Shown here: positions 26 to 6,792 of the stretch, in pieces
Position numbering within the stretch: position 1 is the first letter of the stretch
How the letters are laid out: each line of letters starts with the position of its first letter
Virus record (IMG/VR): IMGVR_UViG_3300047548_000491
Location: 1 to 64,000 of that record
Origin: a virus
Reading direction: 5' to 3' (one strand)
Length of the DNA stretch: 64,000 bases
Made by a program: the position numbers and the translations under genes
Notes under the pieces: model-generated
Told to the model about the DNA's origin: nothing
The model's input: the letters and a program-made list of their open reading frames with translations, nothing else
Databases searched by the model: none

Positions 26-54
26 TGAAGATGTTATATAAAGGAGAAATTAAC

Positions 55-636
55 ATGACACAATCGTAGATCAACGAATTTGCTTGTAAGGAAGTAGTTT
101 TTCACTTCAACAAAGCACACTTAACAGATCAGACCATCCCTATGTGGGTCTTAAAATTTCATGGGGAGACATATTATGTCAATCACGTTGACGCAAAGTT
201 ACCGTGGAGTACTAAGGAAACACCAGATAATCCTAGTACAAAAGGTTCGCTCAAGTTCAAGAATGCGTTAGTCACCATCAACGAACAAAACGAAGCGACA
301 TTAACTGAACTCACTATATTTGACAAAATTCGTTTGCGTAATCAAAAGTTAGGCATTACACGAATCATGTTCAGACTTAACACCGACATGCATAAAGCGT
401 TGTTAAAGAATGAGTTCAAGCATAGTCCTTTCAAAACAATCACAGCACCCTGTACTACACCCTACATCATTTGTGACTTATTAAAGAAAGAGGAAGTTAC
501 TTTCGCTAGCTTAAAGTATAGCGATTTTAGGATCGTTAAAGAGAACGAGCATTATTACAAACAATATGATGAAGTCAAGGGACAGAAAATATTAGCCGAC
601 TATTCACAAGAGGATACACCCTATGAGTACAGTTAA
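55..636 (+). CDS. hypothetical protein interrupted by an in-frame amber codon
   Basis: No function recognised. An ATG at 55 sits 7 nt behind a good ribosome-binding site (AAAGGAG), but codon 5 is TAG (67-69). The same frame then runs open to the TAA at 634-636. The stretch between the TAG and the first later ATG (142) reads as ordinary protein, with FHFNKAHLTDQ flowing into MWVLKFHGETYYV, so the coding region almost certainly begins at 55. From 142 alone the product would be 164 residues; the full frame is 194 codons. Either the amber is suppressed or read through, or it is a mutation or sequencing error (CAG to TAG would do it). The next gene starts 14 nt before this one ends. Confidence 0.6.
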
Positions 637-802
637 ATTATTAGTTCCTCATACTGAAATCAATACTGTAATGAAAGATGTTAGGCAGAGTGGGGTAAAG
701 TATTATCCCATTCGCAGACTATTTGGAATGTACAGAATTGAGTTGGATGACCACCCTATTGCCTCTTTTTTGATTTTGAAATACGGACTTGATAGTACAT
801 AA
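623..802 (+). CDS. 59-residue protein, distant LRW-family member
   Basis: Starts at ATG 623 inside the end of the previous gene and stops at TAA 800-802, which lies within a late-promoter octamer. The C-terminus (IELDDHPIASFLILKYG) has the acidic-acidic-x-x-A-x-F-x-L-K-aromatic pattern found at the ends of the small tandem paralogues at 34.8-40.2 kb. I infer the same fold; no function is known. Confidence 0.55.
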   Translation: MSTVKLLVPHTEINTVMKDVRQSGVKYYPIRRLFGMYRIELDDHPIASFLILKYGLDST

Positions 803-2687: not shown

Positions 2688-3758
2688 TTAAAACAAAGGT
2701 ATTCCATTACTAGTGCCGCTAAGACCGCCCCTGGATAACGACAATGCACCCCTAGTTTGTATAGTTGAAGTATCAGATGCATATACTATTCGATTAACTA
2801 CAGAAGTAACAACAAACGAAGGACTTGGCCCTGTCACACCACCGCCGAACCATCCGTAATCATAACTTGTAGTAGCAGATAAACTATGCTTTGCTGCACT
2901 TAACGGCGCTCTGCCAGAAGCCACCTGAGAGTCGTTTGAATAATCTATTCGATCAACTGTAGACACGAATACATTCGTGAATCCACCACCGATCCATCCA
3001 TAATTATTGTTTCCAGTAGCACTACCTCCCCATCTAGCTAAACTCAATTGTCCTACTTGAACACCGCTAACATCATTACTTAAGTCTATTCGATCTACTC
3101 TATTCTGTGGGTTTGACGATCCGGTAGTAGTACCACCTTGAAAATAACCAAAAGTTGGACTTGCACTACCGGTTAAGTTCGCTCTAGCTATTGTCAGTGT
3201 AGCAGGTCGTGATGCCGCAGTGTCTGATGCATATGTATATCTATAAATAGTACTTGCATATGGTGGGCTAATACTACTACCACCGCCACCGTACCATCCG
3301 TACGTGCTGTTGCCGAAAGAACCAGCGTCCCCTCTCGATGCACTAGTCGAACGTGACGTTGCACTTGCGAGATCATTAGTGTAGGTAATGCGATATACAC
3401 GACTGGCATTTGAAGTTCCGCCTCCTATAAATCCTCCACCAGCCCACCCGTAATCATACGTTCCGAAACTAAACATACCATCTAACTCTAACGGCATAGG
3501 ACCTCGAACACTTGCTGTTACATCATCATTTGACTGATCTATTCTATCAATTGTGCTTGCATTAACTGTAGCAGTAGTACGGCCACCTATGTTCCACCCA
3601 TACGCAGGTAATCCTGCAGGCGGAACAACCCCTGTACCGGTAACCCAAAAAGAATTCGTTGACGCAGTGTAAATGTCACCCATAGACCATACGCCCGATG
3701 CACTTAACGTAGATATGGATGCTATTTGTCCTATTAACCCACCATTATTAGATTTCAT
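2688..3758 (-). CDS. kelch-like repeat tail-fibre protein (paralogue 1)
   Basis: 356 residues from the start at 3758 (MKSNNGGLIGQ), behind TAAGG. An upstream in-frame start exists, but this one matches the N-terminus of the neighbouring paralogue (MKHNNAGVIGK). At least six repeats of about 50 residues each carry YGWxGGG followed by a strand such as VDRIDYSND and a segment ending RGPLS. This is the layout of a kelch-type beta-propeller. I infer a receptor-binding or fibre-tip protein. It is glycine-, serine- and aromatic-rich, as fibre tips usually are. Confidence 0.7.
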   Translation of the reverse strand: MKSNNGGLIGQIASISTLSASGVWSMGDIYTASTNSFWVTGTGVVPPAGLPAYGWNIGGRTTATVNASTIDRIDQSNDDVTASVRGPMPLELDGMFSFGTYDYGWAGGGFIGGGTSNASRVYRITYTNDLASATSRSTSASRGDAGSFGNSTYGWYGGGGSSISPPYASTIYRYTYASDTAASRPATLTIARANLTGSASPTFGYFQGGTTTGSSNPQNRVDRIDLSNDVSGVQVGQLSLARWGGSATGNNNYGWIGGGFTNVFVSTVDRIDYSNDSQVASGRAPLSAAKHSLSATTSYDYGWFGGGVTGPSPSFVVTSVVNRIVYASDTSTIQTRGALSLSRGGLSGTSNGIPLF

Positions 3759-3771
3759 GTTTATTGCCTTA

Positions 3772-4812
3772 TTACCCTGGTCTACCGCCCACACCTGGTT
3801 GTGAATCTATTAAAAATGGCATAGGTCCTCTAGTAGCCGCAGTATCTGTGTCATTTGAATAGTCTAGCCGATTTATTGAACACGTCCTACTAGTTATGCT
3901 TGGGGCAGTACCGTATCCTCCGGAACTATATCCATATTGATCACTTCCCATGCTAGCACCGTCATATCTAGTTGATGGATAACTACTGCGGTTTAATATA
4001 GTACTAGTGTCTGCTGAATATATAAGCCGAGATATTGTACTTGTTGCCTCGCCGAAATTAGCGCCTTGTCCACCTCCCCAGTAACCATTGATTTCTGTAC
4101 CATATGTAAATAAATTATATACCGAATTCGGTAACGGGCTACGAATTACAAGAGCTGAAGTATCCTGAGAATATTCCATCCTCTCAATGAACGAGATTGC
4201 TGTACTCAAAGGACGCAATCCTCCACCTATGTAGCCAAACGTAGCATTTCCTATGGCATTAGCGGACTCTCGTGGTAGTAATACACTATTTTGAACTGTT
4301 GCAGTTACTGTGTCATTATTGTAATCAACACGGCTAATTGATGAATTTATTAGTCCAGATGCAGCAAGACCGGAACCAAACCAACCGTATGCGTCAATAC
4401 CTATTCCGAATAAGGAACCTAGTCCCGCGGATAAGGGTCCTCTTACACTCGCAGAACCTAAATCATTGGCGTAGTCAATACGGTCTATTCTATTAATACC
4501 GCCAGCACCGCCAGCTACCCAACCGTAACTATTATTACCTGCAGCGGCGCTGGAATTCCTTGATTGCGATAAAGTCCCCCTGGATGAAGCAGTAGTAGAA
4601 TCATTAGTATAATCAATACGGTATAATCTTGATGTTGATCCAATATCAACGCCACCGCAATTCCATCCATATGTTTGTTGAATTCCAGAGTCTATCATCC
4701 ATTGATTGATAGATGCTGCCAGTGGAATGTATCCTAAGGACCAGACACCTGGTGACCAAGTTCTAGCTGATACTGCTAATTTACCTATTACGCCGGCATT
4801 GTTGTGCTTCAT
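3772..4812 (-). CDS. kelch-like repeat tail-fibre protein (paralogue 2)
   Basis: 346 residues. The start at 4812 has AAGGACTT upstream. It is a tandem paralogue of the next gene on this strand: both begin MK-x-NN-x-G and both carry about six YGW/FGY-x-GGG repeats with RIDYxND strands and RGPL spacers. The blades have diverged (AYGWFGSG, TFGYIGGG, QYGYSSGG), which suggests selection on surface loops. Likely host-recognition protein; enzyme activity is not excluded because galactose-oxidase-type propellers share the fold. Confidence 0.7.
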   Translation of the reverse strand: MKHNNAGVIGKLAVSARTWSPGVWSLGYIPLAASINQWMIDSGIQQTYGWNCGGVDIGSTSRLYRIDYTNDSTTASSRGTLSQSRNSSAAAGNNSYGWVAGGAGGINRIDRIDYANDLGSASVRGPLSAGLGSLFGIGIDAYGWFGSGLAASGLINSSISRVDYNNDTVTATVQNSVLLPRESANAIGNATFGYIGGGLRPLSTAISFIERMEYSQDTSALVIRSPLPNSVYNLFTYGTEINGYWGGGQGANFGEATSTISRLIYSADTSTILNRSSYPSTRYDGASMGSDQYGYSSGGYGTAPSITSRTCSINRLDYSNDTDTAATRGPMPFLIDSQPGVGGRPG

Positions 4813-6384: not shown

Positions 6385-6792
6385 ATGGAATACAAAATTG
6401 AAGCTAGCAAACGTAATACCAAATACATCGAAGCACTACTGCCGTCGATGTTGAAGCAACTGAACCTGGAAAGTAGCAAAAAAGTACTACTTATTAGGGT
6501 TGCTGATGAATGTGGGACGAACCAGGGTATTACTATGGATCTTGGTAAAAATATCGGGATTGTCGTTGTCATCAAGCCCCGCAGGAATCTCCATCAAATC
6601 GGGCTGACTTTGGCCCACGAAATGGTTCATGTAAAGCAACTGGCCAAGGGTACACTAAAAACCCGTAAAACTGGGTCATTTATTTGGTCTGGTAAACGCT
6701 ACGGTAAAAAAACTGAATACTTGAGTATGCCCTGGGAAATTGAAGCATTTAGTAAGCAAGAATTGATTCTCCGTCGTGCGTACCAGGCTTGA
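6385..6792 (+). CDS. zinc metallopeptidase-like protein (HExxH)
   Basis: 135 residues from ATG 6385. The frame is open further upstream, but the consensus promoter ends 6 nt before this ATG. It has HEMVH at residues 78-82 within a hydrophobic helix (LTLAHEMVHVKQL). An acidic PWEIEA motif near residue 118 could supply the third zinc ligand. This is the SprT- or M48-like arrangement of small phage metalloproteases. Substrate unknown. The stop TGA is inside the -35 box of the next promoter. Confidence 0.7.
   Translation: MEYKIEASKRNTKYIEALLPSMLKQLNLESSKKVLLIRVADECGTNQGITMDLGKNIGIVVVIKPRRNLHQIGLTLAHEMVHVKQLAKGTLKTRKTGSFIWSGKRYGKKTEYLSMPWEIEAFSKQELILRRAYQA

Follow-up and report, generated by a model that had tools for sequence, protein, structure and literature searches.

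The first gene of this viral DNA very probably carries a stop codon close to its start that acts as a gate, and a dedicated suppressor tRNA of the phage would open this gate within an otherwise standard genetic code. The window, by which we mean the whole stretch of DNA that was analyzed, is bases 1 to 64,000 of a virus record of 99,913 bp. Because the window starts at base 1 of that record, the gated gene sits at the contig end, and the contig begins 54 bp 5′ of the gate ATG; a search for a contig extending the window upstream found none.

An earlier note on this DNA had described a ribosome-binding site, an ATG at position 55, a TAG at codon 5, and a frame that then stays open, and all of these were confirmed in the sequence (Table 1). 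Codons 2 to 4 are ACA CAA TCG, codon 5 is TAG, and from position 70 the frame is open to a TAA at positions 634 to 636, with the next in-frame ATG at position 142. Bases 70 to 141 read INEFACKEVVFHFNKAHLTDQTIP. The small ORF that overlaps the end of the gated gene is a possible operon partner of it. The other ORFs of the window (terminase, UvsW-like helicase, thymidylate synthase, and baseplate-like proteins) look, by their sequences, like those of a T4-like phage. On the minus strand, positions 2688 to 4812 hold two adjacent ORFs for repetitive proteins with YGW and DRIDYSNDT-like repeats, which are probably related to each other.

Table 1. Features of the gated gene and its surroundings (window positions)
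Feature	Position	Strand	Basis
Shine-Dalgarno site AAGGAG of the gate ATG	41..46	+	Read directly; Shine-Dalgarno-like 4-mer in 150 of 160 amber loci
Start codon ATG of the gated gene	55..57	+	ATG 1 to 9 codons 5′ of TAG in 160 of 160 listed amber loci
Amber gate codon TAG, codon 5	67..69	+	77 of 77 relatives; 160 of 173 listed distinct loci
Conserved coding stretch from the gate to the internal Met, first strand of the predicted fold	70..141	+	pS/pN; model residues 7 to 18
Rest of the gated gene, HFNK protein	142..636	+	Met at 142 conserved, not a likely start
Small downstream ORF, 59 amino acids, overlapping the end of the gated gene	623..802	+	Read from sequence

Conservation of the amber codon and of the frame behind it

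Relatives were fetched from viral contigs by peptide patterns that all lie 3′ of the Met at position 142, with the gate region left unused. In the 77 relatives obtained, an open frame extends 5′ of the equivalent Met over 23 codons in 75 cases and over 24 codons in 2, and this open stretch is closed by TAG in all 77 and by TAA or TGA in none. An ATG with a Shine-Dalgarno site stands immediately 5′ of the TAG, and the peptide between gate and Met is conserved, being close to IE[FY]ACKDVVFHFNKKHLEDxTIP. The comparison of homologous N termini that the earlier note had proposed thus finds the region before the Met conserved in 77 of 77 relatives, TAG included. The same arrangement, again with the TAG, is present in Rhizobium phage RHph_I1_18, an isolate with a complete genome, where the gated copy falls in a stretch without an annotated gene.

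Four extra scans with other seeds, each giving the best 80 of 309 to 380 relatives, so that more relatives exist than are listed here, enlarged the set to 368 loci, of which three come from named phages. These listed loci are 173 distinct ones at the DNA level, and the amber gate is present in 160 of the 173. Of the other 13, seven are fused forms from jumbo or large phages and one is cut by the contig end. The remaining five begin at an ATG of their own, which lies at the gate position, so that the N-terminal part is retained. Homologues starting at the Met equivalent to position 142, which the earlier note had named as an argument against the gate, were found in none of the 77 relatives. A pattern search of bacterial genomes gave 27 matches, and no relative was among them.

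An error of sequencing or assembly, or else an amber mutation confined to one phage, could be suspected from the position of the site, 67 bases from the contig end, since sequencing errors are commoner near contig ends. However, the same TAG is found in 77 of 77 other contigs and in the complete genome of the isolate RHph_I1_18, which leaves this explanation with a negligible probability. Of the four options that the earlier note had listed (amber mutant, programmed read-through, suppression, and sequencing error), the first and the last are excluded because the TAG is kept in 77 of 77 relatives and in 160 of 173 listed distinct loci. The amber codon at positions 67 to 69 exists as read, and neither mutation nor sequencing error accounts for it. 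The suggestion that CAG would restore the gene fails as well, the gate codon not being a damaged Gln codon.

In six loci (L323 at 4290, L355, L358, and L331 at about 4308 to 4326, L379 at 3125, and L380 at 4310), an ORF opens with the same gate followed by IEY[AS]. Its continuation looks like what we take, from the motif, to be a homing endonuclease, and in these loci an insertion appears to sit in the gated gene.

The coding character of the stretch behind the gate was assessed on 120 of 131 distinct 23-codon segments 3′ of the gate. In the codons after the TAG, pS is 0.77 (synonymous sites are near saturation) and pN is 0.11, and this pattern is reversed in both other frames. The view that the 24 codons before the next ATG read as protein is thereby upheld, and substitution patterns of this kind indicate that the stretch after the stop evolves as protein. 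The Shine-Dalgarno-like 4-mer that precedes nearly all of the gate ATGs (Table 1) occurs ahead of the internal Met in just 1 of these 160 loci; the window's own Met at position 142 has no ribosome site.

An AlphaFold model of the HFNK protein was built with Gln at the TAG, an arbitrary choice, and has a pLDDT of 85.7 and a pTM of 0.66. Residues 7 to 18 form the first strand of the model, so a protein begun at position 142 would be without that strand. The HFNK protein has no match in Pfam and no usable match in PHROG, and its predicted fold has no match in the PDB at an E value of 0.001 or better. Its best match in a viral structure library is an uncharacterized phage protein of 160 amino acids that is 52% identical. 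By the Pfam comparison, the window gene is not a peptidyl-tRNA hydrolase of the PTH2 type, the enzyme encoded by the gated gene of some relatives (see below).

Linked suppressor tRNAs and the genetic code

tRNA genes were sought with ARAGORN on the fetched loci and then in stretches of up to 20 kb with the addition of a covariance model. ARAGORN alone places a tRNA with a CUA anticodon (labeled Pyl by the program) within the fetched locus in 58 of the 77 relatives, and with the longer stretches and the covariance model the number of linked cases is 73 of 77. This count includes L029, in which the anticodon is unread and the match is placed where the near-twin L028 has its CUA tRNA, and L022, in which the contig ends within the tRNA. 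The remaining four gave no CUA tRNA: the contigs of L018 and L049 are about 11 kb long, and in L052 and L072 the gene is near the contig end. In the wider listed set, a CUA tRNA lies inside the fetched locus in 121 of 160 cases, always on the same strand as the gated gene; 114 of the 121 are upstream and 7 are downstream, with a median distance of 312 bp. In L001 to L003, which are close relatives of the window, the CUA tRNA is some 0.6 to 1.0 kb upstream, and a tRNA of this kind would be expected on the same strand beyond the end of the window's contig. The anticodon loop TCTAAA is invariant across 38 aligned CUA tRNAs. The search for a suppressor tRNA that the earlier note had proposed therefore succeeded in the relatives and not in the window's own record, where neither the 64-kb window nor the remaining 36 kb shows a tRNA and where the sequence starts shortly before the gate ATG, as described above.

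The 31:39 pair of the anticodon stem is absent in 37 of 48 distinct CUA tRNAs, compared with 5 of 179 other tRNAs in L001 to L077. In the set linked to PTH2 genes (see below), the pair is absent in 5 of 21 CUA tRNAs and in 0 of 3 UCA tRNAs. We had considered a 4-bp anticodon stem as a general trick of these suppressors, and this was rejected because the PTH2-linked ones mostly keep the pair; the short stem marks one group only. ARAGORN also predicts a tmRNA gene of the permuted type, in some cases with an odd tag peptide, in 12 of the 77 fetched loci (L012, L020, L021, L025, L028, L029, L045, L050, L056, L059, L060, and L061), and our guess is that these fit a theme of translation rescue. A pyrrolysine system was rejected as well: none of eight phage records has a match to the pyrrolysyl-tRNA synthetase model TIGR02367 over the cut-off, and the one weak match, in Phosso, scores 19.6 bits against a cut-off of 178.

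A CUA tRNA in the relatives could also mean that TAG stands for Gln throughout these genomes and that the gated gene is one of many recoded genes, and the rarity of TAG as a terminator would fit. Among ORFs of at least 90 amino acids in four genomes, TAG ends 3 of 106, 17 of 200, 23 of 351, and 3 of 148, which is 2 to 9%. However, TAG still terminates genes, and at least 60 open codons follow the terminal TAG in only 0 of 3, 2 of 17, 0 of 23, and 0 of 3 of these ORFs, which is no commoner than after TAA or TGA. TAG is thus a rare but working terminator in the four genomes, and the genome-wide pattern of code 15, with many in-frame TAG codons and the loss of TAG as a terminator, is not seen in any of them. 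The survey of TAG in these genomes further suggests that conserved late genes have no in-frame TAG. We also scanned the loci collected by then for a Shine-Dalgarno site, an ATG, at most six codons, a stop, and an ORF of at least 75 codons. With TAG as the stop, the scan returned 170 distinct ORFs, of which 148 belong to the HFNK family and 7 are PTH2, rather than the many different genes that recoding would give. The control scans returned 18 ORFs for TAA and 29 for TGA, nearly all singletons, and the sole TGA pair includes the PTH2 gene of Atu_ph07. Taken together, these results make a genome-wide alternative code very improbable.

Gated PTH2 genes and the match of codon and anticodon

Twelve relatives whose HFNK gene lacks the stop, being fused or beginning at an ATG of its own, could be tested. 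Of these 12, 11 have a PTH2 gene upstream of the HFNK gene, and in 10 it is this PTH2 gene that is stop-gated instead; in the eleventh, L291, the ATG of the PTH2 gene is in another frame. The gate is TAG in seven of them (Phosso, L254, L256, L299, L337, L373, and L393) and TGA in three (Atu_ph07, L261, and L265). A CUA tRNA is present in six of the TAG-gated loci (Phosso, L256, L299, L337, L373, and L393), and a UCA tRNA is present in each of the three TGA-gated loci. No suppressor tRNA was found in the 25-kb contig of L254, its TAG-gated PTH2 gene notwithstanding. The locus L369 has a CUA tRNA, and no PTH2 gene, amber HFNK gene, or other gate was found in it. The PTH2 assignment was compared with PF01981 for five proteins, three of which (L337, L080, and L256) match above the Pfam gathering score with 72.9 to 88.9 bits; L393 is below the cut-off (19.6 versus 23 bits) and L299 has no match. 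In the single contig that contains L366 and L545, the HFNK and PTH2 genes are both amber-gated.

A scan of the PTH2 family covered 40 loci. The 31 of the close type are 26 with a TAG gate, 4 with a TGA gate, and L521, while the nine distant loci show no clear gate, nor do eight PTH2 genes of named phages outside the close type (XacN1, phiM12, and Astolliot among them). In the contig of L521, which is also that of L291, a ribosome site and ATG (L291 at about 3609 to 3650) lie in another frame than PTH2, and this ATG would reach PTH2 only via a frameshift.

The match between gate and anticodon was scored on the 23 close-type PTH2 loci that have a suppressor tRNA inside a 12-kb stretch. TAG gates go with CUA in 20 of 20 cases and TGA gates go with UCA in 3 of 3, an association with a Fisher P value of 5.6e-4 when related loci are treated as independent. 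Only four TGA gates are known and few of them are independent; the TGA label, with L521 included, requires at least two changes on the tree, as judged by well-supported branches. The bodies of the suppressor tRNAs differ widely between phages, a sign that decoding of the stop may count for more than the choice of amino acid. Based on the linkage of tRNA and gene and on the match of anticodon and gate, suppression by a phage-encoded tRNA, one of the two options left from the earlier note, is strongly supported.

The other option, programmed read-through of UAG by near-cognate host tRNAs with the phage suppressor tRNA unrelated to it, draws on the fact that UAG is a leaky stop in bacteria. Leakiness does not account for a gate codon and a phage anticodon that change together, nor for the same-strand linkage of the CUA tRNA in the HFNK loci, and we consider near-cognate read-through improbable. 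The 3′ context of the gate is AUU in 125 of 160 HFNK loci and is varied at the PTH2 gates.

This context also bears on a further explanation, in which ATG to TAG is a leader minigene and the protein is re-initiated just after the stop, for instance at an AUU, or at the internal Met. The frequent AUU after the HFNK gates is in its favor, as is the precedent of very short ORFs as known regulatory elements. Against it, the codon after the PTH2 gates is GAA, ATT, GTT, CTG, or others, and 21 of 30 gated PTH2 genes have no ATG, GTG, or TTG from the gate to the catalytic core; in the other 9 a possible start is located after the gate. In the HFNK gene, no ribosome site serves the internal Met, and the codons 5′ of it are under protein constraint. 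Re-initiation would moreover leave the linked suppressor tRNA and the UGA-UCA pairs unexplained. We regard it as unlikely, if less so than the other alternatives. Suppression remains the preferred reading, and in those 21 genes, which have no start before the core, the PTH2 enzyme apparently depends on ribosomes passing the gate.

In Phosso and Atu_ph07, the annotated PTH2 gene begins well 3′ of the gate, so that, as in RHph_I1_18, standard annotation misses the start of the gated gene. The likely target of the UCA suppressor of Atu_ph07 is its PTH2 gene, gp256, which would be read through a UGA near the start.

A possible tRNA-keyed lock and its known counterparts

The arrangement suggests the following course of events. 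Ribosomes would load at the strong site at positions 41 to 57, make a four-residue peptide, and stop at the UAG, and a tRNA with a CUA anticodon, if charged and accepted in decoding, would read the gate and give the full protein. Phages of this group appear to supply this tRNA themselves, usually from a gene shortly upstream on the same strand. As the suppressor is phage-encoded, synthesis of the protein should have to wait until the phage tRNA has been transcribed, matured, and charged. At the gate, the tRNA would compete with release factor 1 (or with release factor 2 where the gate is UGA), and presumably no other route would yield the gated protein. Such a lock would delay expression until the phage tRNA accumulates and would also block leakage. 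In most relatives whose HFNK gene is unlocked, a lock of the same kind, based on UAG or UGA with its matching tRNA, would act on PTH2. The likeliest purpose of the lock is a leak-proof delay for genes acting on translation, in the manner of a coherent feed-forward loop.

When ribosomes pass other stops under suppression, a peptidyl-tRNA hydrolase made in proportion would be self-balancing. A broader proposal, which we put forward tentatively and hold to be somewhat less than an even chance, is that these phages have a natural tRNA-keyed lock, consisting of a stop shortly behind the start of a gene or operon related to translation and of a matching dedicated suppressor tRNA of any body type, which is self-balancing through its PTH2 and HFNK output, has moved between genes, and has changed more than once between UAG and UGA, with a matching change of anticodon each time, and which explains the lone suppressors of tRNA-rich phages with a standard code. 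If the lock works in this way, it is the natural counterpart of a switch that was deliberately constructed in synthetic biology, and it makes a virus gene expressible only in a cell where the virus's own tRNA is already at work. With a conserved, codon-matched target gene, the purpose of suppressor tRNAs in standard-code phages can be tested directly in isolates. In the titles and the beginnings of abstracts that were searched, with subscription papers mostly outside coverage, we found no description of a stop near the start of a gene that is paired with a matching suppressor tRNA of the phage.

Several named phages offer observations that touch on this subject. XacN1 has a PTH2 gene of the distant, ungated type, and a 283-codon ORF (L580 at 3741) that opens with Shine-Dalgarno-ATG-AAG-TAG and has an ATG four to five codons later; the only relative found of this ORF (L607 at 2998 to 3000) has a TAG at the same place, and as a suppressor target the ORF is a lead only. 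Milchi (PQ464597; L608 at 718 to 729) has an amber-gated ORF beginning ATG-AAC-GAA-TAG, and Astolliot (OM982621, at about 58,876 on the minus strand) has an amber-gated ORF in the same place beginning ATG-AAA-GAA-TAG. This ORF is about 280 bp 3′ of a CUA tRNA, which the Milchi record names a suppressor tRNA. In phiM12, there is a tRNA with a UUA anticodon, of the ochre suppressor type (L593 at 6714 to 6789; KF381361 at 106,714 to 106,789), and we looked for a TAA-gated ORF in this phage and found none.

Among known systems, the gene prfB for release factor 2 has an in-frame UGA and is autoregulated by a +1 frameshift. The likeness to the gated genes lies in an early stop in a translation-factor gene whose output is set by the efficiency of termination; the difference is that prfB shifts by +1, whereas the phage gate keeps the frame and the cognate tRNA is supplied. 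To judge from its reading frames, L291 may be a frameshift case like prfB. In the insertion of pyrrolysine and selenocysteine, a dedicated tRNA decodes a stop codon. The phage gates share this feature, and ARAGORN labels the phage suppressors Pyl and SeC, but the phage tRNA bodies vary widely and the site is a variable N terminus.

Phages with code 15 (crAss-like phages, Lak phages, and others) also have a CUA suppressor tRNA that reads UAG in phage genes. They have many genes with in-frame TAG codons, whereas the gated phages have a standard code with a single start-proximal codon as the target and also use UGA with UCA. A proposal that reading of UAG inside genes by a phage CUA suppressor times the late genes comes from Borges 2022, as cited in PMC10879173. 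The jumbo phages Atu_ph07 (UCA) and XacN1 (CUA) likewise combine a standard code with lone suppressor tRNAs, and compared with the gated genes described here, no target gene for the suppressor is named in the available parts of their papers: the Atu_ph07 paper reports the UCA suppressor and the putative PTH gp256 with no connection drawn between them, and the authors of the XacN1 paper looked for a target of its CUA suppressors and found none. A survey of jumbo phages, as far as its text was available, treats suppressor tRNAs as part of whole-genome recoding. The closest counterpart in design is that of Ho et al. (PMC7969014), in which a stop in an E. coli gene together with a co-regulated suppressor tRNA removes leaky expression, with both UAG and UGA being effective. 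That feed-forward loop was engineered, whereas the phage lock would be natural and ancient.
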